A stretch of 53,028 bases of DNA from Patescibacteria group bacterium (GCA_023484515.1 JAMDAY010000023.1:1-53028); one strand, 5' to 3'; positions 6,742 to 46,159 are shown, counted from the first letter of the stretch. Program-made: numbers and translations. Notes: generated by a model from the letters alone, not told the origin.

Positions 6742-7710
6742 TTATATTAAATTATTCAGTATATCCCTGCCGGAAAAATATCCTACCTGCCGGCGCCAGG
6801 AATTGAGATTTGGTATTACTATTTGCCACCCGCCACCTACGTTAACGCTTATGCTTGGCACAGGCGAAATGGCAGGCACAGGCGAAGCAGTAGAAGTTTG
6901 GCCGTTTGAACCTGTCCGGCCCCAGCCGCGGCCGCTATAGCCTGTTACGTTTGGAACGGATGAAACCGCCGCGACATTTGAACGCGTTACGGAAAAATCC
7001 GTACCATCAGTTGCCAGGCTGGAAGTAGACGCCAAAACCTGCTTAGCCTGGTTTATCATATTTATCATTTTTGCGCCGGACTGGGAAATGGTAACCTGAT
7101 TGCCATTTTGAATAGCCCAGCCGTTCGTGAATTGAACGGTCCCAAAATTATCCAAAGGGATAAACGACCGGCCGGAGCTGGGCATCTCCTGGATCCATTC
7201 CGCGGAAGACAAGGAAGAGTTGTAATTTACCGCAGTCTGGTAATTTTGTCCGGAGGTATTATTTTTTACGGAAACGTTCCAAATATTTCCCGATTGGCGG
7301 GTAATGGCAACGGTTATTGAATCTCCGGCATTAACGGAAAGGGGAATGGGCTGGGCGCTGCGGGGCAAAAGTTCTATCCAGGCCTGGTAATCTATATTAC
7401 CCGTCCTGCCTATCATGCCTTGGGTTCCTGCCTGGATAATGTCCTGGCCGGAAATTCCGCCAATCCCGACCCAGGCGGCATCCGCCCCGTAGTTGCTTTT
7501 GCTGACTTGCGGCACAACCCAAGTGCTGCCCACTCCCGTATATGTTCCTCCCGTGGCTGCGTACCCCGACCAATTGGCAGAAGTACGCGCAGCCGTCACT
7601 GGCCCTGATGTTTGGACTGCGCCAGCCGGATCAATTGCCATTGCCAGTCCTGCCAACACAGTTGCCGCGACCGCCAGCCAAAACTTGAACCTTGATGTTA
7701 AATTTTTCAT
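6742..7710 (-). CDS. Secreted G1 (eqolisin/glutamic) peptidase family-like protein
   Basis: Signal peptide; NWSGYAATGGTYTGVGSTWVVPQV, WVGIGG, SSAEWIQEMPSS typical of bacterial G1 proteins. Confidence 0.8.
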   Translation of the reverse strand: MKNLTSRFKFWLAVAATVLAGLAMAIDPAGAVQTSGPVTAARTSANWSGYAATGGTYTGVGSTWVVPQVSKSNYGADAAWVGIGGISGQDIIQAGTQGMIGRTGNIDYQAWIELLPRSAQPIPLSVNAGDSITVAITRQSGNIWNVSVKNNTSGQNYQTAVNYNSSLSSAEWIQEMPSSGRSFIPLDNFGTVQFTNGWAIQNGNQVTISQSGAKMINMINQAKQVLASTSSLATDGTDFSVTRSNVAAVSSVPNVTGYSGRGWGRTGSNGQTSTASPVPAISPVPSISVNVGGGWQIVIPNLNSWRRQVGYFSGRDILNNLI

Positions 7711-8011: not shown

Positions 8012-10582
8012 TTATGCATCCGGGACATTGTCACACGCCGCAAAAGGAAGGCGCTGCTGGATAACTTGTCTATTTTTGGCCCAGGCTAGAAATGCTTCGG
8101 AAGAAAGCGGGCGGCTGATAAAAAACCCCTGGGCCTCGTGGCAGCCTAAAGACTGCAGCAGGCCCAACTGCGTTTCCGAGTCCACGCCTTCGGCAATCAC
8201 CTTTAAATGCAGGCTTTCGGCCATGGAGATAATGGCGCGAATAATTTTGGCATCCTGGCTGTCGGTAATGCTATGCCTGACAAACGACTTGTCAATTTTC
8301 AGTTTGCTGACGGGAAAATTTTTTAAATAACTTAGCGACGAATAACCCATGCCGAAATCGTCAATTATAATGCTCACCCCTAAACTGCTTAACTCTTTCA
8401 GCTTCCTTCTGGTAGCCTCAATGTTTTCCATGGCGATATTTTCGGTTAGCTCCAGGTCCAAAGCCGAAGGGTGGAGCAAGGCCCGGCTTAGGGACTGGCT
8501 TACGGTATTTAACAAGTCATCTTCCAAAAACTGGCGCGGCGACAGGTTTACGGAAACCTTTAAGCCATCCAGGCCGTTTTCCTGCCATAACCTGTTTTGC
8601 AGGCAGGCTTGGCTTAAAACCCATTTTCCAATGGGAACGATCATGCCAATTTCCTCGGCCAAATTTATAAAGCGGTTAGGCTTAAAAATTCCCGCATTGG
8701 GATGATACCAGCGCAAAAGCGCTTCCGCTCCCACAAGCGCCTTGGTTCTTATGTCTATAATCGGCTGGTAGTGCAGGCGGAACTCGCCGGCTTCCAAAGC
8801 CTGGCGCAATTTATTTTCCAAATGCAACTTTTCCGACGCGTGGAAGTTCATGGCCTGGGCGTAAAATTGGCAGCGGTTGCGTCCCTTTTCCTTGGCCCGA
8901 TAAAGCGCCACGTCCGCATTTTTTAGCAAACCCTGCAGATCCTCGCCATCCTGGGGGAACAAGGCAATACCTATGCTGGTTGAAACGTGCAAGGTATGGC
9001 GGGCAATGCGGATAACCGGCTCTAAGGCCTTACTGATTTTTTCAGCGGCGCGGGACACATCATAAATGCCAGCCACTTTTTCCAAAAGCACCACAAATTC
9101 GTCGCCGCCCCAGCGGGCTATAACGTCGTCGCTGCGCATGGCAGCCTTTAACCTGGAAGCGACTTCGGCGATTACTTTGTCGCCCAAGTCATGCCCCGAC
9201 GTGTCGTTGATATTCTTAAAGCGGTCCAAATCCAAAAGCATGATTGCGGCCATATGCCGTTCCTTCCTGGCAAAAAACATGGCGCGGCGCAGGCGCTCTT
9301 CAAAAGTTTTGCGGTTCGGCAGGCCGGTTAAAATGTCGTGGGAAGCGTAGAACTGTATTTCCTGCTGCGCCTGCCTAAGCTGGGTTACATTGCGGAAAAT
9401 GCTTACCACCATCAAAATTTCTCCGGACTTGCCGTAAATGGGGCGCGATTTAGCCAATACCCAATACGCTTCACCGATACTTTTAACCACAATCTGGATT
9501 GTTATTTCGTCGGAAACCTTTCCTTTCAGCGCCAAATTTTGCGGCCACTTTTCCCAAGGCAAAGGCTGGCCGGCTTCGTCTAAAATTTCAAGCTTTTTCC
9601 ACATAATTTCCGCAGGCGCGTTTAAAAATCCGTCTATGCCGGAAAACCCAAAAATTTTCGCTCCGGCCTCGTTGGCAAAAGCAATCCGACCGTCGGCATT
9701 TTGCACGACAACCGCGTCTTCAATTCCTTCCAGTATCATTCTTAACCGGTCTTGGGACTTGGCCAATTCTTCTTTATGCGTTTCCAATTTATTTTTTGCT
9801 TCCACCTCGGGGGTAATGTCCCAGGCGGCGTTCATCAGCGCCGTGACCTTGCCGCTGTCGTCCTTAATTGGCCGGTAATAAACCCTAAAATATTTTTCAT
9901 AAGCAATCCCCGTATCGTCCCAGTCTTTTGTTATGGGCATTTGCTCCAATATTTCCTCGCGGCCGCTTTTAAAAGCCCGATCCATGGGTTCCAATAATTT
10001 TTGCCCTTGGTCTTTCAATTCCGGAAAAGCTTCCTGGGGATCTTTGCCTATCATTGCCAGGCTGCCAAAAACTTCCTCCGCTTTCTTATTGACCATGCTA
10101 TAAATATGTTTTGGTCCGTTGGTAATGACTACCAGCATCGGCAGATGGTTAAACAAGTTACGGATATCTTCCTGGTATTTCTCCAGGACCTTAGCCTGCC
10201 TTTTTGCCAAAACCATGCTTTCGGCATGGCGCTTCAGCAGGCTGGCAAGAATTACCAGGATTGGGAATACCCAGGTTAATATGGGTATTTCCACTGCCGC
10301 TTTTCTCTCAAAATAAAAAAAATTTCCCGGCAAGGAAAGGTCAAAACCGCTCAAAAGGACGGCACCAGCCGCGCTGGCAAGCCCGGAATATAAACCGCCA
10401 ACAAACGCCGCAAAAGCGACCGCTGCTCCGTAAATTATGCTCATATTGGGAACGTCAACGTTCAGCCATAAAAGGATTTTGTCAACTATAAAAATTAGCA
10501 AGACCAAAACCGGTCCTTCTATAAACGCCAGGAATTTCTTGAATTTCGGGCCAATTTTTAGGCTGAAAAAAGAATTCCCCAT
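8012..10582 (-). CDS. Membrane PAS-GGDEF-EAL protein (c-di-GMP turnover)
   Basis: RWGGDEFVVLLEK, GAEALLRWYHP, DDFGMGYSSLSYLKNFPVSKLKIDKSFV; N-terminal TM segments. Confidence 0.95.
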   Translation of the reverse strand: MGNSFFSLKIGPKFKKFLAFIEGPVLVLLIFIVDKILLWLNVDVPNMSIIYGAAVAFAAFVGGLYSGLASAAGAVLLSGFDLSLPGNFFYFERKAAVEIPILTWVFPILVILASLLKRHAESMVLAKRQAKVLEKYQEDIRNLFNHLPMLVVITNGPKHIYSMVNKKAEEVFGSLAMIGKDPQEAFPELKDQGQKLLEPMDRAFKSGREEILEQMPITKDWDDTGIAYEKYFRVYYRPIKDDSGKVTALMNAAWDITPEVEAKNKLETHKEELAKSQDRLRMILEGIEDAVVVQNADGRIAFANEAGAKIFGFSGIDGFLNAPAEIMWKKLEILDEAGQPLPWEKWPQNLALKGKVSDEITIQIVVKSIGEAYWVLAKSRPIYGKSGEILMVVSIFRNVTQLRQAQQEIQFYASHDILTGLPNRKTFEERLRRAMFFARKERHMAAIMLLDLDRFKNINDTSGHDLGDKVIAEVASRLKAAMRSDDVIARWGGDEFVVLLEKVAGIYDVSRAAEKISKALEPVIRIARHTLHVSTSIGIALFPQDGEDLQGLLKNADVALYRAKEKGRNRCQFYAQAMNFHASEKLHLENKLRQALEAGEFRLHYQPIIDIRTKALVGAEALLRWYHPNAGIFKPNRFINLAEEIGMIVPIGKWVLSQACLQNRLWQENGLDGLKVSVNLSPRQFLEDDLLNTVSQSLSRALLHPSALDLELTENIAMENIEATRRKLKELSSLGVSIIIDDFGMGYSSLSYLKNFPVSKLKIDKSFVRHSITDSQDAKIIRAIISMAESLHLKVIAEGVDSETQLGLLQSLGCHEAQGFFISRPLSSEAFLAWAKNRQVIQQRLPFAACDNVPDA

Positions 10583-11642: not shown

Positions 11643-13313
11643 ATGCAAACTAAAAATAATCTAATTTTATCCGACAAGTTGAACCTTTTAAACAAGGTTG
11701 TTTTGGAGTGCGTCCAGGTAAATGGCGAAGCCACAATTGTTAAAAAAATTATTAACACTTTAATAATCGCACTAAAAGCCGATTTTGGCTTTAGTTTTTT
11801 TCATACTGAAAACCAAGAGTTCAAGCTGCTCTATAAGACGGCGTCCACCCCTTATATTCCTGCGGCTCCGCGCAAAGAAGGCATTGTTTCCAGGGCATTT
11901 TCAACCAAAATCCCACAGTTGGTGGCTGATGTAGAAAACAGCTATTACGTAAAGGCAGATGCAAAAGAAACCATGTCCAGCGTAGCAGTTGTCCCCATTA
12001 CTTACAAAAAACACAATTATGGCACCTTGCATATTTGCTTCTTAAAAAAACATAATTTTTCCAAAGAGGATGAGGAACTTTGCATTTACGCTGGAAACAG
12101 CGCGGCGCAGGCTATCACTATAAATAGGTTTTACAGCCAGCTGGAAGATCTGGTTAAGGAACGGACCGGACAGTTGGAACAAATAAATAAAAACCTAGAA
12201 CAGGACAAGGTTAAAGACGAGGCCATATTGGACAGTATTGGGGAGGGGATTATTGCCACGGACGAGCGGGGAACGGTGATTATGCTGAATTTCCAGGCGG
12301 AAAAGTTGATCGGCCTAGACCAAAAAGAAGCAATAGGCCTACCGGTTGACCAGGCCATGCCGTTATACGGCGAAGACAAACGCCTTATAATTAAACAAAA
12401 GCGGCCGGTCTTTAAGGCTTTGGGAAACAAGCGCAAGGTTAAAATAAGGAACCTCCTCTTGTCCAAAAACAACGGCAGGCAAATTCCGGTATCCATTACC
12501 GCCGCGCCTATAATTTTAAACGGCAAAGTCATTGGCACTATTCAGGTCATTTCCGACATTACCCAAGAAAAAGCCGTTGACCGCGCCAAAAGCGAACTTA
12601 TTTCCCTGGCGTCCCACCAATTGCGCACCCCTCTTTCCGCAATTAACTGGTACGCCGAAGCCCTGTTAAAAAAGGAATTGGGGCCGCTTAACCGCGAGCA
12701 ATTGAGGTATTTGGGAGAAATAAATAACGCCAACCGGAAAATGATAGAGTTGGTTTACGACTTCCTGAATGTCTCAAGAATTGAACTGGGGACTTTTAAC
12801 ATCCAGCTTTCGGAGCTTGATCCGAAAGAAATAGCGCAAAATGTAATTAAAGAACTGCGCCCCGCCATTGGCAAGAAACGCCTCCAACTGAGGGAAAATT
12901 ATAATAAAAGTTTATGCAAAATTTTTGCGGACCGTAAAATTATCAGGATTATTCTGCAGAACCTGCTTTCCAACGCGGTCAAATACACGCCGCGCCAGGG
13001 AAAAATTTGCCTTAATATGGGTTTACAAGGCAAGCAGCGCCGCAAAACGCTTGCCATTAGAGTCAGTGACACGGGCTATGGCATTCCTAAAAACCAGCAA
13101 AATAAAGTTTTTTCCAAATTATTCAGGGGGGACAACATTGCGGCCATGGACACCGAGGGGACAGGACTTGGCTTATATATAGTTAAGTCCTTTGTGGACT
13201 TATGCAAGGGGAAAATTTATTTTAAATCCGAACAAAACAAGGGAACTTCCTTCTACATAAGTTTGCCTCTGCCAAGCCAAAAAATCCGTTTAAAAACTCT
13301 GGACAAAAAATAG
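11643..13313 (+). CDS. GAF-PAS sensor histidine kinase
   Basis: SLASHQLRTPLSAINWYAEALL, NLLSNAVKYTP, DTGYGIP, GTGLGLYIVKSFV. Confidence 0.93.
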   Translation: MQTKNNLILSDKLNLLNKVVLECVQVNGEATIVKKIINTLIIALKADFGFSFFHTENQEFKLLYKTASTPYIPAAPRKEGIVSRAFSTKIPQLVADVENSYYVKADAKETMSSVAVVPITYKKHNYGTLHICFLKKHNFSKEDEELCIYAGNSAAQAITINRFYSQLEDLVKERTGQLEQINKNLEQDKVKDEAILDSIGEGIIATDERGTVIMLNFQAEKLIGLDQKEAIGLPVDQAMPLYGEDKRLIIKQKRPVFKALGNKRKVKIRNLLLSKNNGRQIPVSITAAPIILNGKVIGTIQVISDITQEKAVDRAKSELISLASHQLRTPLSAINWYAEALLKKELGPLNREQLRYLGEINNANRKMIELVYDFLNVSRIELGTFNIQLSELDPKEIAQNVIKELRPAIGKKRLQLRENYNKSLCKIFADRKIIRIILQNLLSNAVKYTPRQGKICLNMGLQGKQRRKTLAIRVSDTGYGIPKNQQNKVFSKLFRGDNIAAMDTEGTGLGLYIVKSFVDLCKGKIYFKSEQNKGTSFYISLPLPSQKIRLKTLDKK

Positions 13314-23563: not shown

Positions 23564-24034
23564 TTAGGCGGAAACCGGCGGGGGAGCTACTGCGGCAGCG
23601 GTACTCCTTTGTTTCGTCAAAATTTCCTTTACCTTGTTTAAAATTTCTTCCGTGGTAAAATAAGCCTTTACCATGTAGGCCTGGATCTGCAGGGCCTGGG
23701 TGCTTAAAATGTCCTTGCTGCTCCACAGGTTGCTTAACACGATTACCGGCGTTTTGGCCAAGGCCTGGTCCGAATTTTTCCGGATAGTTTCCAATACTTT
23801 AAATCCATCTACTTCAGGGAGCATTAAATCCAACAATATCAAATCCGGCCTGTTTTGCTGGAACAAATCCAAAGCCTTGCGGCCGTCCTCGGCCTGGGTA
23901 ACCTCAAAACCGTGCGAAACCAGCTTATGCGTGACTATTTCCCGCATAGCCGGGTCATCTTCCACCACCAAAATTTTGCTTGGTTTCTGGTCTGGCATAT
24001 TCTTACTAGAATTATAGCATAAATAAGCTAACAT
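23564..24034 (-). CDS. Response regulator (receiver domain)
   Basis: KILVVEDDPAMREIVTHKL, DLILLDLMLPEVDGFKVLETIR. Confidence 0.92.
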   Translation of the reverse strand: MLAYLCYNSSKNMPDQKPSKILVVEDDPAMREIVTHKLVSHGFEVTQAEDGRKALDLFQQNRPDLILLDLMLPEVDGFKVLETIRKNSDQALAKTPVIVLSNLWSSKDILSTQALQIQAYMVKAYFTTEEILNKVKEILTKQRSTAAAVAPPPVSA

Positions 24035-24154
24035 GTGCTATAATAAATAAAATGTCAATAAGCCTGTTTTACAGAAATTAAAATAATAGTCTATTATTTA
24101 TCCACAACATTTCGGGCTAATCCCTATTTAAAAGTACCCCGGAATGCATTATTT

Positions 24155-25246
24155 ATGCCTAAAAATAATACCTTTCCAGGCTTAATGCAAAACCCTCTTT
24201 TTGATAGCCACTACCGGGTTATTGCTCTTGATCTGCCAAAAAGCATGCTAAAAGGTTTTATTGCAATCCACAGAAAATTTCCAAATATTCCCTCATTCGG
24301 AGCGACCAGAATGGCACATTACCGCACAGACCAAGAAATGCTGGATGACGCGTTAAAACTTTCGCGGCTCATGTCCTATAAAAATGCAATGGCCGGACTT
24401 CCTTATGGCGGCGCCAAAGCCGTTATCATGCTTCCTTCCAGAGTTACCTTGGCCCAAAAGAAAAACATTTTAAGGGCCTACTCGGAAAAAGTTAATGAAC
24501 TGGCCGGAAGTTTTATTACCGGGGCGGATGTAGGCATTGATGATTACGATCTTAAAGTGATGTACGAAAAAAGCAAGTATATGGTGGGCTTAAAAAGCAA
24601 GCCGGTGCCTTATACCGCATTAGGAATATATTACGCCCTCAGAGTCGGGCTTAGGGAAATCTTTGGCAGCGATTCCGTGTCGGAAAGGACCTTTGCCATA
24701 CAGGGCTTGGGAAAAATAGGCAGCAATTTATTAAAACTTATTTACAAGGAAGCGGGCAAGATTTATGCCGCGGACACAAATCCCGATACCAGAAAAAATA
24801 TAAAAAAAACATACCCTAAAGTAAACCTGGTCCCGCCGGAAAAAATTTTCAGCCTGCAAGTGGACGTATTTTCCCCCTGCGCTTTAAGCGGGGCGATTAA
24901 TAAGTCAAACGTAAACAAACTCCAATGCAAAATAGTGGCTGGCGGGGCAAACAACCAGCTGGAGTCTCCCGAAATGGGCAGAAGGCTGTTTGAAAATAAA
25001 ATTTTATACGCACCAGACTATGTAATAAACGCCGGCGGCTTAATAAGCGTAGCTGACGAATATGAAAACCGGAGAATTAACAATGAAAGGCTGCTTGGCA
25101 AATTGCAGGTAATTGCCAGAAACTTCCGCGCCATAATTTCCACCAGCAACAATAAACATCTTCCCACCAATTTAGTTGCAGACCAGATGTCAGAAAAAAT
25201 TTTAAACAGGAAATATGAGCCCCAAATTACGGCTGTCAGAATATAA
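24155..25246 (+). CDS. Glu/Leu/Phe/Val dehydrogenase family (leucine dehydrogenase-like)
   Basis: AGLPYGGAKAVIMLP catalytic Lys region, GADVGIDD, FAIQGLGKIGSNLL, AGGANNQLE. Confidence 0.9.
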   Translation: MPKNNTFPGLMQNPLFDSHYRVIALDLPKSMLKGFIAIHRKFPNIPSFGATRMAHYRTDQEMLDDALKLSRLMSYKNAMAGLPYGGAKAVIMLPSRVTLAQKKNILRAYSEKVNELAGSFITGADVGIDDYDLKVMYEKSKYMVGLKSKPVPYTALGIYYALRVGLREIFGSDSVSERTFAIQGLGKIGSNLLKLIYKEAGKIYAADTNPDTRKNIKKTYPKVNLVPPEKIFSLQVDVFSPCALSGAINKSNVNKLQCKIVAGGANNQLESPEMGRRLFENKILYAPDYVINAGGLISVADEYENRRINNERLLGKLQVIARNFRAIISTSNNKHLPTNLVADQMSEKILNRKYEPQITAVRI

Positions 25247-26735
25247 ACCAGAAAAACTCCTTGAGGATCTGGCTATAAAACCCGAAAGTTATTGGGCAAG
25301 CCGCGGCCAAAAAAAAGCCTTGGAGCTTTTTCGTGGAATGTCACAAAGGGTGCCTGCATATAAAGATTTCCTGAAAAAACGCAAAGTCAATCCCGAAAAA
25401 ATAAAAACCTTTGCTGATTTCCAATTTGTCCCGCCGCTGGACAAGCAATCTTATCTGCGGCAGTACTCCCTGGAAAAACTTTGCTGGGACGGGAAGCTTT
25501 CCGAAGGCCAATGGACAATCGCCTCAACTTCCGGCACCTCTGGCGAGCCGTTTTATTTCCCCCGAACCGCAGAGCAGGATGCCCAATATGCCTTGACTGC
25601 GGAATTGTATTTAAGGACCAATTTTGAAATTCAAAAAAAATCAACTTTGTATATTAACGGTTTTGCCCTTGGCGTCTGGATTGGCGGCTTGTTTACCTAT
25701 GAATCCATAAGGCTCCTGTCAAAAAAAGGAAACTACAATTTAAGCCTAATTAACCCCGGGCTGAACAAGGCGGAAATTATCAAGGCTTTAAAAAATTTAG
25801 GGCATCTTTACGACCAAGTTATTATCGGCGGCTACCCGCCGTTTATCAAGGACACAGTGGACGATGCGACTGAGGCAGGAATTAACTGGAAAAAATACAA
25901 CCTGGGTTTTATATTTTCCGCTGAAGGCTTCAGCGAAAAATTCCGGGATTACATTATCAAAAAAACAGGTTTAAAAAATCCCCATGCTTCCACCCTAAAC
26001 CATTATGGTACCGTAGATCTTGGAACCATGGCGCATGAAACGCCGTTGTCTGTGTTAATTCGCCGCCAAGCGATGAAAGATAAAGAATTATACCAAAGCC
26101 TTTTTCACAATGCCAACCGTTTGCCGACTTTTGCGCAATATCTCCCGGAAATGTTCTATTTTGAAGAAATATCCGGAAGCTTGTACTGTTCCGCTTTTAG
26201 CGGCTTGCCTTTAGCCAGGTATGACCTAAAAGACAGGGGAGGAGTGATTGGTTTTGATAAAGTTAAGCGCCTTTACCAAAACCTCCAATTGGATTTAGGT
26301 ACAAAAATTAACCATGCGGGGATCGGTAAAACAGTTTGGAATTTGCCGTTTGTATATGTTTACGAAAGAAACGACTTGTCCGTAGTATGGTATGGCGCAA
26401 ATATCCATCCGGAACACATTAAGACGGCGCACGAATATAAAGACCTCCATTCTAAAGTCAGCGGAAAATTCACCATGCAAATCGTTCTAGACCGCAAGCA
26501 TAATCCCATTTTAACAATCCATTCTGAAACAAAAAAGGGCATTAAGCCTTCGGCAGGTTTAAGCAAGCAGGTGGAAAGGGCGGTTGTGCAGACATTGCTG
26601 GAAAATAACTCGGAGTATAAAAATAACTACGACGCCATGCCTAAAAAGAATACGCCTTTAGTCAAACTATGGCCTTACGAGAGCCATCCATACTTTAAAA
26701 TAACCGGCAAGCAGCCTTGGAGCGTCAAAAAATAA
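25215..26735 (+). CDS. PaaK-like adenylate-forming enzyme
   Basis: WTIASTSGTSGEPFYFPRT AMP-binding loop; overlaps upstream gene by 32 nt. Confidence 0.8.
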   Translation: MSPKLRLSEYKPEKLLEDLAIKPESYWASRGQKKALELFRGMSQRVPAYKDFLKKRKVNPEKIKTFADFQFVPPLDKQSYLRQYSLEKLCWDGKLSEGQWTIASTSGTSGEPFYFPRTAEQDAQYALTAELYLRTNFEIQKKSTLYINGFALGVWIGGLFTYESIRLLSKKGNYNLSLINPGLNKAEIIKALKNLGHLYDQVIIGGYPPFIKDTVDDATEAGINWKKYNLGFIFSAEGFSEKFRDYIIKKTGLKNPHASTLNHYGTVDLGTMAHETPLSVLIRRQAMKDKELYQSLFHNANRLPTFAQYLPEMFYFEEISGSLYCSAFSGLPLARYDLKDRGGVIGFDKVKRLYQNLQLDLGTKINHAGIGKTVWNLPFVYVYERNDLSVVWYGANIHPEHIKTAHEYKDLHSKVSGKFTMQIVLDRKHNPILTIHSETKKGIKPSAGLSKQVERAVVQTLLENNSEYKNNYDAMPKKNTPLVKLWPYESHPYFKITGKQPWSVKK

Positions 26736-26739
26736 CCAT

Positions 26740-27891
26740 ATGGGTTTTCTTAAGGACAACACGGATAGGGAATCGTGGAAAGCGGTAAAAATTAATCCGG
26801 AAAAAAACGTAAAAAAACAAATTCTTGTTGCCGGGGGCAATTCGCATTTCAACGTTATAGACCGTTATTTAGAACAACTGGAAGAAATTTTTTTGCTGCG
26901 CCACCCCCAATGCCGATTTAATCCTAATTATCAAAACGACCGGATTCAATTACTCAATAAACATTTAAACGGCAAGGCCGCCGCGGCCAAAGGCAGCTGG
27001 TTCTATTTTCCCTGGCAGAACACGCTAGCCCATTTCTTGCCGGAAAAATTACATTTGGAATTACGCACCGGACGCAACCGGAATCTGGTTACCAAAGAAG
27101 AACAGGCCAGATTTTATAACTCCACCATTGGATATTTGGGCATGAGCGTCGGGAGCCACGTTGCCTTGACTGTCGCGCTTACCGGAGGGGCCAAGCATGT
27201 TAAACTGGCCGACCCGGATTCAATTTCCGGATCAAATTTAAACCGGATCAGGTCGGGGTTTCTCAGCGTGGGTCTGAAAAAAACCGTTGCCGTTGCCAGG
27301 CAGCTTGCAGAAATGAATCCTTATGGTAAAATTGAAATTTTCTCCGAAGGGATAAATGACAAAAATATTGAATCTTTTTTTTCCGGACCGGCGCTTGATT
27401 TAATTATTGAAGAGACTGACAATCCCTATATAAAAATTAAATCCAGGTTTATATCTAAAAAACTAAAACTGCCCGTATTAATGGCGGCTGACAATGGCGA
27501 CAATGCTATCGTGGACGTGGAAAGATATGATTTGTATAAAAATTTGCCAATTCTTCATGGCATTTTAGGAAATATAACAGCGGAAGAATTTAAGCAAATA
27601 CCGCCAACCGAGCTTCCCAAAATTATCGCCAAAATGGCCGGAGCGAACTTTTCAACCGTACGCATGCTGCAATCTGTCAGCGAAGTAGGCAAAACCTTAT
27701 ATTCCTGGCCGCAACTTGGCACGGCCGCAACACTTTGCGGAACCGTCTTGGCCGGCCTGGCCAGAAAAATCATTACGGGCAAAAAGATTAAGTCCGGCCG
27801 GTACAACGTCAACATAGACGCGATTATTTGTCCCGCATCCAAACAAGAGCTGGAACAAAGGGACAAAATTCTAAATAAAATATTCACATAA
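26740..27891 (+). CDS. ThiF/HesA/E1-like adenylyltransferase (Rv1355c/MoeY-like N-terminal part)
   Basis: STIGYLGMSVGSHVALTVALTGGAKHVKLADPDSISGSNLNRIRSG; LDLIIEETDNPYIKIKSR. Confidence 0.85.
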   Translation: MGFLKDNTDRESWKAVKINPEKNVKKQILVAGGNSHFNVIDRYLEQLEEIFLLRHPQCRFNPNYQNDRIQLLNKHLNGKAAAAKGSWFYFPWQNTLAHFLPEKLHLELRTGRNRNLVTKEEQARFYNSTIGYLGMSVGSHVALTVALTGGAKHVKLADPDSISGSNLNRIRSGFLSVGLKKTVAVARQLAEMNPYGKIEIFSEGINDKNIESFFSGPALDLIIEETDNPYIKIKSRFISKKLKLPVLMAADNGDNAIVDVERYDLYKNLPILHGILGNITAEEFKQIPPTELPKIIAKMAGANFSTVRMLQSVSEVGKTLYSWPQLGTAATLCGTVLAGLARKIITGKKIKSGRYNVNIDAIICPASKQELEQRDKILNKIFT

Positions 27892-27896
27892 ATTTT

Positions 27897-28964
27897 ATGG
27901 ACATAGATGCTGTATTGTCCCAGGCAATCCAGGCCCCTTCAGGTGACAATTGCCAACCATGGGAAATTCAAAAAACTTCAGACGGCGTAGAGATATTTAA
28001 CGTACCCGCAAAAGACCAGTCCCTGTATAATTTCCGGCAACAAGCCTCTTATCTGGCTCACGGGGCATTGTTAGAAAATTTCAGCATAGCCGCCAAGCAT
28101 TTGGGGTTTGATCCCGATGTTAAACTTTTTCCTGACGCAAACAATTTAAACCTCGTCGCTAGAATTAAATTGCGCATAATTAATCCGCAGCCGCAGCAAC
28201 TATTTGAATGCATTGCCAAAAGAACAACCAATCGCAAACCTTATAAAAACATAGACTTACCGCCGGTTTTGCTGGAAACATTAGAATCTGCGGCCAGCGA
28301 CGTGCCGGGAGTGCGCCTCATGCTGGCCAAAGGGGCGCAACAGCGCAATATTCTGGCAAAGTCGTCCGCCATAAACGAACAAGCAGTCTTAGAAAATGAA
28401 TATTTGCATAAATTTTTGTTCCAGCATGTTGTCTGGACCCGAAAACAATTAGAACAGTTAAAATCGGGGATGTTTATTAAAACCTTGGAAATGCCCCGAC
28501 CAGCCGAAACGGTATTTAAAATGGCAAGCTCTTGGAAAACTGTTTGTATACTTAACAAGCTAGGCCTTTCCAAAATAGTAGCCAAGCAGAACGAGCAGGT
28601 TTACAATCATTCCGCTGCTTTTGGTCTAATCGTTATAAAAAACAATAACCACGATTCTTTTGTAAGGGCAGGCCAAGCTCTGGAAAGGGTTTGGCTCAAT
28701 CTTACAAAAGAAGATTTGAGCCTGCACCCCGTTGCCGGCATAATTTTTTTGATTCTTAGAATTAAAGGGGGAGGGGTAAAAGAAATTTCCGACAAGCACC
28801 AAAAAATGGTGCTGCGCTCATATGAAAATATTAAAAATGTTTTCCATTTGGACGATACCGACATTCCGGCTTTTATGTTCCGCCTCGGCCAGGGAGGCAA
28901 GCCGAGCGCAACCTCGCCGCGACTGCCCTTAAAAAGCCTGCTCCGACCTGGACAAAACTTCTGA
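27897..28964 (+). CDS. Nitroreductase-like (Acg/MoeY-type) protein
   Basis: AIQAPSGDNCQPWEI FMN-binding-like motif; RTTNRKPYKN; adjacent to ThiF gene. Confidence 0.8.
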   Translation: MDIDAVLSQAIQAPSGDNCQPWEIQKTSDGVEIFNVPAKDQSLYNFRQQASYLAHGALLENFSIAAKHLGFDPDVKLFPDANNLNLVARIKLRIINPQPQQLFECIAKRTTNRKPYKNIDLPPVLLETLESAASDVPGVRLMLAKGAQQRNILAKSSAINEQAVLENEYLHKFLFQHVVWTRKQLEQLKSGMFIKTLEMPRPAETVFKMASSWKTVCILNKLGLSKIVAKQNEQVYNHSAAFGLIVIKNNNHDSFVRAGQALERVWLNLTKEDLSLHPVAGIIFLILRIKGGGVKEISDKHQKMVLRSYENIKNVFHLDDTDIPAFMFRLGQGGKPSATSPRLPLKSLLRPGQNF

Positions 28965-29021: not shown

Positions 29022-30710
29022 ATGGCTTTTTTTGATATATTCACCAACTACGACCTGCTGTCCGTAGGGATTGCAATAGCCGCCAGTACTTTATTGGGGT
29101 TCATTGTATTTTTTAGCAACCCTAAAAGTTATACCAGCAAATTTTTTTTAATGTTTACATTGGTAAGTTCGGCCTGGGGAGGGGTTAATTATTTGGTTTA
29201 TCAATTTAGCAAGCCTGAGGTGTCGCTCATTTTTATCAGATTAGTCATGTTTATGGCAACATGGCAAGCTTTTTCTTTTTTTTTGCTAACCTTCGTGTTT
29301 CCAAAAGAGGAATGTGAAATACCGAAAAAATTTAAATATCTCTTGCTGCCTCTGACTATTTTGGTTTCTTTACTGGCATTAACTCCTCTCGTATACAAAA
29401 ACATCAACACAGCAGCTTCGGCCGGGGAGGTGGCCCAGGCCACGCCCGGGCCGGGAATTATTGCTTTTGGATTGCTTGCGATCGGCTTAGTGTTAAGCGG
29501 GATTATAAATTTAATAAGAAGGGCCGGGCGTTCGGATAAGGCGGACGAAATAAAATATAGATTCTTTTTGTTAGGGGTGGGGTCTATGTTTATACTGATC
29601 ATAACCCTAAATTTCATTCTGCCTAACATCTTTTCCAATTATAATTTCATACCTTTTGGAGCACTCTATATATTTCCTTTCGCAGCCTTTACCAGCTATT
29701 CTATCTTGCGGCACCACTTACTAAATATAAAAATAGTAGCGACTGAAATTCTGGTTTTTTTCCTTATTATCCTAAACTTTTTGGAAGTCCTTTTGTCTAA
29801 AAGCCAAAGCGAAGTCCTGTTCCGTTTGATAGTACTGATAGCCTTGCTAATTTTTAGCGTGCTGTTAATCCGAAGCGTGCTAAAAGAAATTGAACAGCGG
29901 GAGCAGCTGCAGATTTTGACCGGGAAATTGGAAACGGCCAATGAGAAGCTAAAGGCTTTGGACCAGGCCAGGGCGGAGTTTATTTCCATTGCCAGCCACC
30001 AGCTAAGGACGCCGCCGGCCACCATTAAGTGGTACTTGGCCGCAATTTTGTCGGGTGACTACGGACCGCTCGACCCGGAGGTAAAAACCGCGCTGCAAAA
30101 AACCGAACAGACCAACAACCTCCTCATTTCGCTGATTGAAGACATTTTGAACGTGTCGCGCATAGAACGGGGCAAGATGGAATTTTTGTTTGAGCCGGTG
30201 GATTTGGAAAATTTGGCGGAAATTACCTATGAGCAGTTAAAACCGATCGCTTTGGAAAAAAAGCTGGATTTAACCTTTAAAAAACCAACGGTCAAGCTGC
30301 CCCAAGTCCTGGCTGACAAGGAAAAAATCAGGCAAGTAATGAACAACTTGATAGATAACGCCTTAAAATACACCAAGCAGGGGAGCGTGGCAGCGGAAAT
30401 TTGCCGGGATAACGACGATATTAAATTTAAAGTAACCGATACAGGCAAGGGGATAAGCGAGCAGGACAGGAAATCCATATTTGACAAGTATAAGCGGGGC
30501 AAAGAATCAATCCACCAAAGCGCCGGTTTGGGCTTGGGACTTTATGTGGCCAAGGTGGTTATGGACCAGCACCACGGGAAAATTTGGGCCGAAAGCGCCG
30601 GCGAAGGCAAAGGCTCGTCTTTTATTTTCAGCATCCCCATGCACAATTCGTTGAAAGCGACCACTTTGCTGGACCTGACCGAACAAACGCAAAAAGCGGC
30701 TGTCCCGTAA
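29022..30710 (+). CDS. Sensor histidine kinase with multi-TM N-terminal region
   Basis: SIASHQLRTPPATIKWYLAAIL, NNLIDNALKYT, DTGKGIS, GLGLGLYVAKVV. Confidence 0.93.
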   Translation: MAFFDIFTNYDLLSVGIAIAASTLLGFIVFFSNPKSYTSKFFLMFTLVSSAWGGVNYLVYQFSKPEVSLIFIRLVMFMATWQAFSFFLLTFVFPKEECEIPKKFKYLLLPLTILVSLLALTPLVYKNINTAASAGEVAQATPGPGIIAFGLLAIGLVLSGIINLIRRAGRSDKADEIKYRFFLLGVGSMFILIITLNFILPNIFSNYNFIPFGALYIFPFAAFTSYSILRHHLLNIKIVATEILVFFLIILNFLEVLLSKSQSEVLFRLIVLIALLIFSVLLIRSVLKEIEQREQLQILTGKLETANEKLKALDQARAEFISIASHQLRTPPATIKWYLAAILSGDYGPLDPEVKTALQKTEQTNNLLISLIEDILNVSRIERGKMEFLFEPVDLENLAEITYEQLKPIALEKKLDLTFKKPTVKLPQVLADKEKIRQVMNNLIDNALKYTKQGSVAAEICRDNDDIKFKVTDTGKGISEQDRKSIFDKYKRGKESIHQSAGLGLGLYVAKVVMDQHHGKIWAESAGEGKGSSFIFSIPMHNSLKATTLLDLTEQTQKAAVP

Positions 30711-44392: not shown

Positions 44393-46159
44393 ATGATTCC
44401 TAGCATTTACCTGGACCTGGAGGATGACGTATCCAGGATAACCGCCAGGCTAAAAAAGGAAAAATCATTACAAGCGGTTTTGGTCTGCCCCAAGCGCTGT
44501 TTTCTGTTTTCGGACAGTATAAACTTAAGGCTCCTGAAAAAACAGGCGGATTTGCTGAAAAAGGAAGTCTATATTTTAACAATGGATGAACGCGGGCAAG
44601 CGTATGCCAAAGAAGCCGGTTTCGGCTTGAAATTTTTGCCAAAACATTCCGGAGGGAAGGCAATTTCCGATATCCGGGCAAATGGGACAAAAAGCCAGGA
44701 AAGCGCCGCAGGAGCCGGCGTCAATATGCTGGCCCAAACTGTCAAGGAAATTAAAAATATCACCAAATTATTCAGCAAAGAAACCGGCCAGCCAAGGCCG
44801 CCTGTCCGGAATAAAAGCGCCGAACGCGCGCGCCATGCCGCAAATCCCGAAAAAACGCAGCGTAAAATCCATCACACGCCGACCGTAGAAGTGTCGGAAC
44901 CGAAAGTTATGGCAACAGATTCCATCTTCCCGCCGGAAATTGAGGAGTCGTACAAGCTGCGGAAAAAAAAGGCTGCCAACCAGCGCATAGCCACCGGCCT
45001 TGTAGCGGTATCCCTAATTACAATACTGGCTCTAGTTTTTGTGGTATTGCCCAAAGCAGAGGTGGTAATATACCCGAAATTTGAACCCATAACCCGCGAC
45101 ATAGATGTCACCATAAGCCCCAGCATCCAGTCGGCTGATTCAGGCAGGCTGCTTTTGCCCGCCACCAAAGTTAATGAAACCATGAAAGTGTTCGACAAAT
45201 TCCAAAGCCAAGGGAAAAAAGAGGTTGGCAACAAGGCCACGGGCACGGTCAGGATTTATAATTTTACCGGCCAGGCTCTTAACCTGAAAGCTGCTACCAC
45301 CGTGTTAACGGCAGGCGGAAAATCTTATTCGTTGGCCGAAGACGCCATGTGGCTCAAGGCGGCGGTATACTTAAATTCCAAAACCAAAGAAGTGGATCCC
45401 GCAAGCCTGCCCGAGCCAATAACAATAGTAGCCCAGGACGGGGGAGAAAGTTTCAATCTGCCGGCTGGCGCCAGGCTGGAAATTACCAACCAGGTATTCG
45501 GCAGCAAGCCGCAATCTTTGTATGCCAAAACCGATTCTCCCATTACGGGAGGAACCTCGCGTTTACTGTCCGTAGTTACCGACCAGGACATTAACAACGC
45601 CCAAACCGCCCTGCAGGAAAAATTCGTTCAAAATGTCCAGGCGGAATTGCAGAAAAAAAACCTGGCAATCCCGACTTCGCCCAGCAACGCTTATGTTTTA
45701 AATGACATAAAATTTGCCGGCGACAAGCCCGCAGGCACGCAAAGCCCGGCTTTCCAGGCGAACCTGTCGGCCACCCTGACCGGACTGGCTTACGATTCCC
45801 AGGCATTGGACCAATTAATACTTGATCGTATCGGCCAGACCTTGTCAGGCAATAAAAATTTAGAAGTAAACGGAGAACAGGGTATTAGCGTAAAATTAAA
45901 AAGTTACGACCCGGGAAGCCAGATTGCAATTTTAACGGCGCACTTTGAAGGCCAGGCCGTAATGAATATTAGCCTCAACGGCCTCGCCTCGGAATTGGCC
46001 GGGAAAAATAAAACCCAGGCTAACGAAATCTTGCGGTCCAAAGCGGACATTGACCGCATAGAGATGACCGTAGCGCCATCCTGGCAAAATACCCTGCCTT
46101 GGCTAAAAAGCAAAATCACGGTAAAAACCGGGGATGTCCGCAATTTAACCGGAAATTAG
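44393..46159 (+). CDS. Large membrane-anchored hypothetical protein (baseplate-J-like architecture possible)
   Basis: Central TM LVAVSLITILALVFVVLP then VEVVIYP-type extracytoplasmic domain. Confidence 0.65.
   Translation: MIPSIYLDLEDDVSRITARLKKEKSLQAVLVCPKRCFLFSDSINLRLLKKQADLLKKEVYILTMDERGQAYAKEAGFGLKFLPKHSGGKAISDIRANGTKSQESAAGAGVNMLAQTVKEIKNITKLFSKETGQPRPPVRNKSAERARHAANPEKTQRKIHHTPTVEVSEPKVMATDSIFPPEIEESYKLRKKKAANQRIATGLVAVSLITILALVFVVLPKAEVVIYPKFEPITRDIDVTISPSIQSADSGRLLLPATKVNETMKVFDKFQSQGKKEVGNKATGTVRIYNFTGQALNLKAATTVLTAGGKSYSLAEDAMWLKAAVYLNSKTKEVDPASLPEPITIVAQDGGESFNLPAGARLEITNQVFGSKPQSLYAKTDSPITGGTSRLLSVVTDQDINNAQTALQEKFVQNVQAELQKKNLAIPTSPSNAYVLNDIKFAGDKPAGTQSPAFQANLSATLTGLAYDSQALDQLILDRIGQTLSGNKNLEVNGEQGISVKLKSYDPGSQIAILTAHFEGQAVMNISLNGLASELAGKNKTQANEILRSKADIDRIEMTVAPSWQNTLPWLKSKITVKTGDVRNLTGN

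Follow-up and report, generated by a model that had tools for sequence, protein, structure and literature searches.

A 53,028-nt stretch of DNA from a Patescibacteria group bacterium (GCA_023484515.1, JAMDAY010000023.1:1-53028), referred to at its full length as the window, carries an operon of four putative biosynthetic genes (A to D) followed by a histidine kinase (HK) gene, with a response regulator (RR) gene encoded divergently upstream (RR ← → A-B-C-D-HK). The first-pass annotation, made from the sequence alone, had described a cluster of four co-directional genes, respectively leucine dehydrogenase (LeuDH)-like, PaaK-like, ThiF/E1-like and nitroreductase-like, ending upstream of the kinase. 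The open reading frames (ORFs), their overlap and their spacing are exactly as it had given them, and the family calls agree with hidden Markov model, PDB and profile searches. The boundary has to be moved, as the unit comprises five genes plus the divergent regulator and the kinase belongs to it. The features are:

23564–24034, minus strand: response regulator, single domain, 156 aa, without output domain (Pfam Response_reg, 9e-23)
24035–24154, no strand: 120-nt intergenic region between the response regulator and gene A, common to both divergent units
24155–25246, plus strand: gene A, LeuDH-like ELFV amino-acid dehydrogenase, 363 aa (PF00208/PF02812)
25215–26735, plus strand: gene B, PaaK-fold ANL ligase, 506 aa (from model, profile search and motifs)
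26740–27891, plus strand: gene C, ThiF/E1-like cyclase homologue, 383 aa (NF005901)
27897–28964, plus strand: gene D, nitroreductase-superfamily flavoprotein, predicted flavin-dependent oxidase, 355 aa (PRK14851 C-terminus, NF005901, Acg family)
29022–30710, plus strand: histidine kinase with N-terminal seven-helix membrane sensor, HisKA and HATPase, putative receptor (PF16927, PF00512, PF02518)

Genes A and B overlap by 32 nt (25215–25246), and an overlap of about 30 nt is also seen in three other loci (L025, L026, L028). The gaps between B and C and between C and D are 4 nt and 5 nt, respectively, and the kinase ORF begins 57 nt past gene D. A promoter-like TTTACA-18-TATTAT at 24068–24097 (plus strand) in the intergenic region is a match to the consensus alone and not proof of a promoter. 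An Rfam scan returned three tRNAs and no riboswitch.

Conservation in the phylum

Presence was scored in a sample of 287 Patescibacteria genomes, with gene B counted at a match of E < 1e-60 and gene C at full length. Gene neighbourhoods were compared in 58 fetched stretches annotated with profiles built from the homologue set. A peptide-pattern scan of contigs had yielded one relative only (L024, Ca. Taylorbacteria), the patterns being probably too specific, and a genome search was used instead.

Homologues of C occur in 21 of 60 close relatives, B adjoins C in nearly all of these, and the order A-B-C-D-kinase is kept at about 36–58% protein identity. In the phylum sample, C was found in 35 genomes, B in 41 and both in 32. 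The commonest arrangement is A-B-C-D-HK; C-B-D and a fused C-D gene (L029, 738 aa) were also found, and the cassette as a whole is patchily distributed. Synteny in relatives, on which the first-pass annotation had staked its proposal, is thus widespread. CPR (candidate phyla radiation) bacteria are generally credited with little biosynthesis, and their communication with kin or hosts is poorly known; the surprise at meeting such a system in a CPR genome stands, with the qualification that it is common in the phylum.

Single loci show further variation. In Ca. Taylorbacteria (L024, 2343–5169), B and C lie without D or kinase beside DinB-, LexA- and DNA-methyltransferase-like genes, and this copy is possibly mobile or degenerate. 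One genome (G112; L084, L105) encodes the ligase twice; one paralogue is accompanied by cyclase and kinase, the other by an Acg-type flavoprotein only. Outside the phylum, a Nonomuraea homologue of B (34.5% identity) directly follows a kinase and a response regulator (L115, 7699–11371, Nonomuraea gerenzanensis), a single case of possible kinase linkage beyond Patescibacteria. A Gemmatirosa homologue of B follows an Acg-type flavoprotein, and on actinobacterial plasmids C homologues are accompanied by a GNAT protein in Streptomyces and by a GGDEF gene in Rhodococcus.

Linkage to a seven-helix histidine kinase

The sensor of the kinase (HisKA_7TM, about residues 1–260) was modelled at pLDDT 85 as a bundle of long helices before a coiled coil that leads into the kinase. 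A fold search of the sensor against the PDB gave nothing below E 0.001, and the weak seven-helix matches, mostly G protein-coupled receptors (E ≥ 0.006), were uninformative.

A related seven-helix kinase lies on the same strand downstream of B, within 4.5 kb, at 43 of the 49 Patescibacteria B loci; in three of the six remaining loci (L041, L085, L101) the contig ends within 2.5 kb. As a genome holds about four HisKA genes, chance linkage is estimated at ~0.01 per locus, or ~0.5 in all, which makes the excess ~90-fold. The kinase is kept even at B loci that have no C or D (L079, L094, L100, L103, L104), so that B and the kinase form the core, with B as the core gene of the system. The linkage also makes a signal the preferred role of the product, strengthening what the first-pass annotation had named as one option. 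A homologue of the response regulator occupies the same divergent position at about ten of 21 near loci.

Over all loci, divergence of the sensor correlates with that of B (r 0.55) and of C (0.62), and the correlation between B and sensor within the order is 0.34 (p about 0.01). In a first Mantel test the sensor had followed the enzymes much more closely than the kinase core did; outside the order and with tree distances this contrast was mostly gone, and it was dropped as proof of ligand specificity. A second histidine kinase (GAF-PAS-HisKA-HATPase) lies at 11643–13313 of the window (plus strand) and is one of three HisKA proteins in the genome.

Gene A and the exchangeable first gene

The closest solved structures to gene A are leucine dehydrogenases (PDB 6acf, 226 bits), and its best NCBIfam match is the tryptophan dehydrogenase ScyB (249 bits). 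Lys76, Lys88 and Asp125, the catalytic positions of LeuDH, are invariant in 10 homologues, and the two lysines, the aspartate and the dinucleotide fold by which ELFV enzymes are recognised are all present. Gene A is therefore predicted to catalyse an oxidative deamination and to supply an acid.

The first-pass annotation had treated the dehydrogenase as part of the system, which holds in the window and not universally. The first slot is taken by A in 16 loci, by a FlxA-type ammonia-lyase in 9 and by an aminotransferase-like protein in one (L081), never by two together. A and the lyase co-occur in none of 27 resolved loci (hypergeometric probability ~1e-5, kinship ignored), and both types are found inside one genus (g2). 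The lyase most resembles FlxA, the tyrosine ammonia-lyase encoded in flexirubin clusters (599 bits in L035, cut-off 700). Aminotransferase genes recognised from sequence also lie nearby in L076, L098, L100 and L109. That unrelated folds, each removing an amino group, appear in one slot is strong evidence that the first step would supply an acid from an amino acid.

Four cassettes (L080, L082, L083, L086) lie beside tyrosyl-/arginyl-tRNA synthetase-like genes, three of them with a VKOR-like membrane protein. These neighbours were recognised from sequence only; they could point to tyrosine as substrate. An amidinotransferase-like gene that immediately follows the ligase and precedes the kinase in L102 (2747–3820) suggests yet another acid or amine building block.

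A PaaK-fold ligase in genomes without coenzyme A synthesis genes

Gene B has no Pfam match, and its NCBIfam matches are weak (FlxY as the best, PaaK, F390 synthetase). Its AlphaFold model, made with 21 homologues, has a pLDDT of 89.8 and is most similar in the PDB to PaaK (2y27/2y4o; Foldseek E 2e-23). The profile search also returned the amide ligase ClxA (9s3l), 6siw and AjiA1 as distant matches (E 2e-5 to 4e-3). Ser106, Gly107, Gly110, Tyr264, Gly265, Asp340, Arg385 and Lys499 are invariant in the 21 homologues and the ANL motifs are intact. B is predicted to adenylate an acid and to form an amide.

ClxA is a PaaK-like ligase that couples an aromatic acid to an amine through an amide bond at the expense of ATP (PMC12519233). 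The CoaE and CoaBC genes of coenzyme A (CoA) synthesis are absent from all 16 cassette genomes and present in 10 of 14 and 14 of 14 control genomes, respectively. Acyltransferases of the FeeM/acyl-homoserine lactone (AHL)-synthase type (PF21926) are likewise absent from all 16, and none is encoded in the operon. Given these absences, B probably joins the amide directly and CoA-free, as ClxA does (PMC12519233), although the cassette genomes could still scavenge CoA.

Genes C and D resemble a split oxazolone synthase

In mycobacteria, Rv1355c (TrzS), a fused cyclase and flavin oxidase, makes N-acyl oxazolones: the ThiF-like portion consumes ATP in cyclising N-acyl-tryptophan, and the flavin oxidase portion uses O2 to desaturate the ring (PMC12856293). 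The exchange D217A abolishes cyclisation, R540A and Q651A impair the oxidase, and Arg540 is required for flavin mononucleotide (FMN) and activity (PMC12856293). Gene C matches the N-terminal half of the Rv1355c family model NF005901 (309 bits over 6–373, E 6e-92) and D the C-terminal half, and the fused L029 protein matches the whole model at 452 bits. The first-pass reading of C and D as a split Rv1355c is thus borne out, with the reservation that the curated cut-off of 476 bits is reached by none of C (309), D (183) and the fused protein. The system it had called undescribed is a conserved candidate pathway starting from amino acids; the chemistry of C and D is already described, Rv1355c being TrzS (PMC12856293).

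The NLNR motif (Asn166, Asn168, Arg169), Lys181 and Asp227 of C are invariant in 19 homologues, leaving the E1 adenylation residues intact, and Asp227 occupies the expected position of TrzS Asp217 (TrzS positions were placed by alignment with actinobacterial TrzS homologues). Loss of active sites, which would have told against the first-pass proposal, was accordingly seen neither in the dehydrogenase lysines nor in the ligase motifs nor in the E1 Arg, Lys and Asp. A function of C as a sulfur-carrier or molybdopterin E1 was rejected, the scores being at most 65 bits as compared with 309 for Rv1355c. Gene D matches the C-terminus of PRK14851 (228 bits), NF005901 (183 bits) and the Acg family (147 bits; PDB match Acg 2ymv), and APSG-N-QPW and Arg109/Arg113 are conserved.

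Methyltransferase genes lie between D and the kinase in L031, L035 and L043, with a weaker match in L028 and L081, and L080 has an alpha/beta-hydrolase; variable genes of this kind would be expected for the tailoring of a small molecule. In L076 (3631–5532, minus strand) a 633-aa fusion of a nitroreductase-family flavoprotein with an alpha/beta-hydrolase lies between C and the kinase.

Other genes in the window

A Peptidase A4 (glutamic peptidase family) protein at 6742–7710 (minus strand, 129 bits) is unusual for a CPR genome, this family being best known from fungi. A protein of 856 aa (8012–10582, minus strand) combines GGDEF and EAL with several PAS domains, a complete set for cyclic-di-GMP turnover in a small genome. 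The 588-aa ORF at 44393–46159 (plus strand) has no Pfam match at E 1e-4.

Discussion

We propose, with a probability of roughly one half, that the operon is a self-contained synthesis-and-sensing unit in which an oxazolone-type product made from amino acids is detected by the linked kinase. We infer every reaction, the substrates, their order and the product as ligand of the kinase as follows. Gene A would deaminate an amino acid to a 2-oxo acid, for which sister operons would use a tyrosine ammonia-lyase or an aminotransferase. Gene B would activate the acid with ATP and couple it, without CoA, to the amino group of another amino acid, so that an N-acyl amino acid results. Gene C would adenylate the free carboxylate and cyclise it to an oxazolone, and gene D, as an FMN enzyme, would desaturate the ring. 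The product would act on the seven-helix sensor, and the kinase would signal to the divergently encoded single-domain response regulator.

Several observations weigh against this scheme. In about 11 loci the place of D is taken by a more distant flavoprotein of the Acg type, and C or D is missing from several loci with B and kinase, so that the oxazolone step is not universal. The TrzS Arg540 region (DRIR) reads Asn-Glu in most D proteins, and where TrzS has Gln651 the D of the window has His (Gln in most relatives). With the Asp of C conserved and the Arg540 region of D not, the cyclase assignment is firmer than that of the oxidase, and a desaturation by D as the last step is uncertain. The known flavin-dependent oxidase (FDO) reaction moreover needs O2. 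On the signalling side, the response regulator, itself without output domain, is found at only 19 of the 49 loci, and an exporter is not apparent. When all loci are taken together, B and C are tracked almost as closely by the kinase core as by the sensor, so that the sensor correlation supports co-inheritance more than recognition.

The operon shares parts with several known systems. TrzAS (Rv1356c-Rv1355c; tryptazolone, Mycobacterium/Rhodococcus; PMC12856293) likewise pairs a ThiF-like cyclase with a flavin-dependent oxidase and keeps the adenylation Asp. Here, in contrast, cyclase and oxidase are split in two genes (except in L029), the Arg540 equivalent is not conserved, a PaaK-fold ligase replaces the acyltransferase TrzA, and an acid-supply enzyme, a seven-helix kinase and a response regulator are added. 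In TyzABC (M. tuberculosis) and OxzAB (Pseudoalteromonas rubra; tyrazolone, PMC10404671), cyclase and FDO are also encoded together and act in N-acyl amino acid chemistry, but with an acyl-CoA N-acyltransferase of the FeeM/AHL-synthase fold that is absent here. Stieleriacine and thalassotalic acid clusters (PMC12479983), which serve N-acyl tyrosine synthesis, similarly contain genes of the ThiF, nitroreductase and methyltransferase types, with a NAS acyltransferase instead of a ligase and no kinase described. An acyltransferase makes the N-acyl amino acid in all of the TrzS, TyzABC (PMC10404671) and stieleriacine (PMC12479983) pathways. ClxA and related PaaK-like ligases (9s3l, 6siw, AjiA1; PMC12519233) have the fold of B, whereas their sequence similarity to it is only distant and ClxA belongs to a benzoxazole pathway. 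Flexirubin clusters contain FlxA and the ligase FlxY, and sister operons start with a FlxA-type lyase followed by B; polyene genes are lacking here and the window uses a dehydrogenase.

As in synthase-receptor quorum-sensing pairs, genes for a histidine kinase of the membrane and for a response regulator are linked to the biosynthetic genes. To our knowledge, the synthase has no homology to the LuxI, LuxS or CqsA types.

Three other explanations were considered. An N-acyl (dehydro) amino acid or oxazolone might act outward as an antimicrobial or host-modulating compound, with the kinase sensing envelope stress or the host and serving only for regulation. We know of no defined ligand for the PF16927 seven-helix sensor family, which counts in favour of this explanation, as does the lack of a PDB match for the sensor below E 0.001. 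Stieleria N-acyl tyrosines are antimicrobial and use ThiF and nitroreductase genes (PMC12479983, PMC12856293), and sub-inhibitory antibiotics induce proteobacteria to produce oxazolones (PMC12856293). We nevertheless consider an outward-acting compound unlikely, as the kinase sits inside the biosynthetic operon at nearly every locus, those with B only included, and no dedicated exporter or immunity gene is linked.

It is slightly less probable still that B is a CoA or carrier ligase and that C and D act on a substrate other than an N-acyl amino acid, for instance in sulfur or peptide chemistry. The best named relatives of B, FlxY and PaaK, are indeed CoA ligases, and ThiF-fold enzymes have many acceptors (MccB, TcdA, RiPP (ribosomally synthesised peptide) cyclases). 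The lack of CoaE and CoaBC in every cassette genome and the preference of C for Rv1355c/TrzS over any sulfur-carrier E1 speak against this, and the operon has no conserved ORF for a carrier protein or a precursor peptide. Finally, a mere co-location of catabolic amino-acid genes with a neighbouring kinase, for which the often catabolic nature of LeuDH-type and ammonia-lyase enzymes and the patchy distribution might be cited, is highly improbable in view of the order and spacing kept over many families, the interchange of unrelated deaminating folds in one slot and the excess of kinase linkage; chance co-location was rejected, being largely refuted by the phylum-wide synteny.

No description of the operon was found in the open-access literature on Rv1355c or on quorum sensing, biosynthetic clusters, oxazolone and 7TM kinases in Patescibacteria/CPR, and a survey of CPR quorum-sensing genes (PMC7567580) makes no mention of ThiF, oxazolones, ammonia-lyases or histidine kinases. 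An oxazolone-type synthase pair is known; what is new in the operon is its coupling to a ligase that is putatively independent of CoA, to a deaminase that can be exchanged and to a receptor kinase. A synthesis that bypasses CoA and starts from an exchangeable enzyme would also be new to oxazolone chemistry. The ligase gene with its linked kinase provides a usable marker for finding more such clusters.

Taken together, the data suggest an undescribed chemical signalling system that recurs across the phylum. More tentatively, and at somewhat less than even odds, Patescibacteria may share a phylum-wide mode of signalling built on a CoA-independent amide ligase, an oxazolone cyclase and a seven-helix kinase, with lineage-specific signals arising through swaps of the acid-supplying enzyme and through methyltransferases. 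The authors of the TrzS study named the physiological role of oxazolones as a major unresolved question and noted a possible role in signalling (PMC12856293). With a TrzS-type enzyme pair linked to a receptor kinase in many genomes, this idea becomes directly testable and, if it is true, oxazolones would gain a function as signals.

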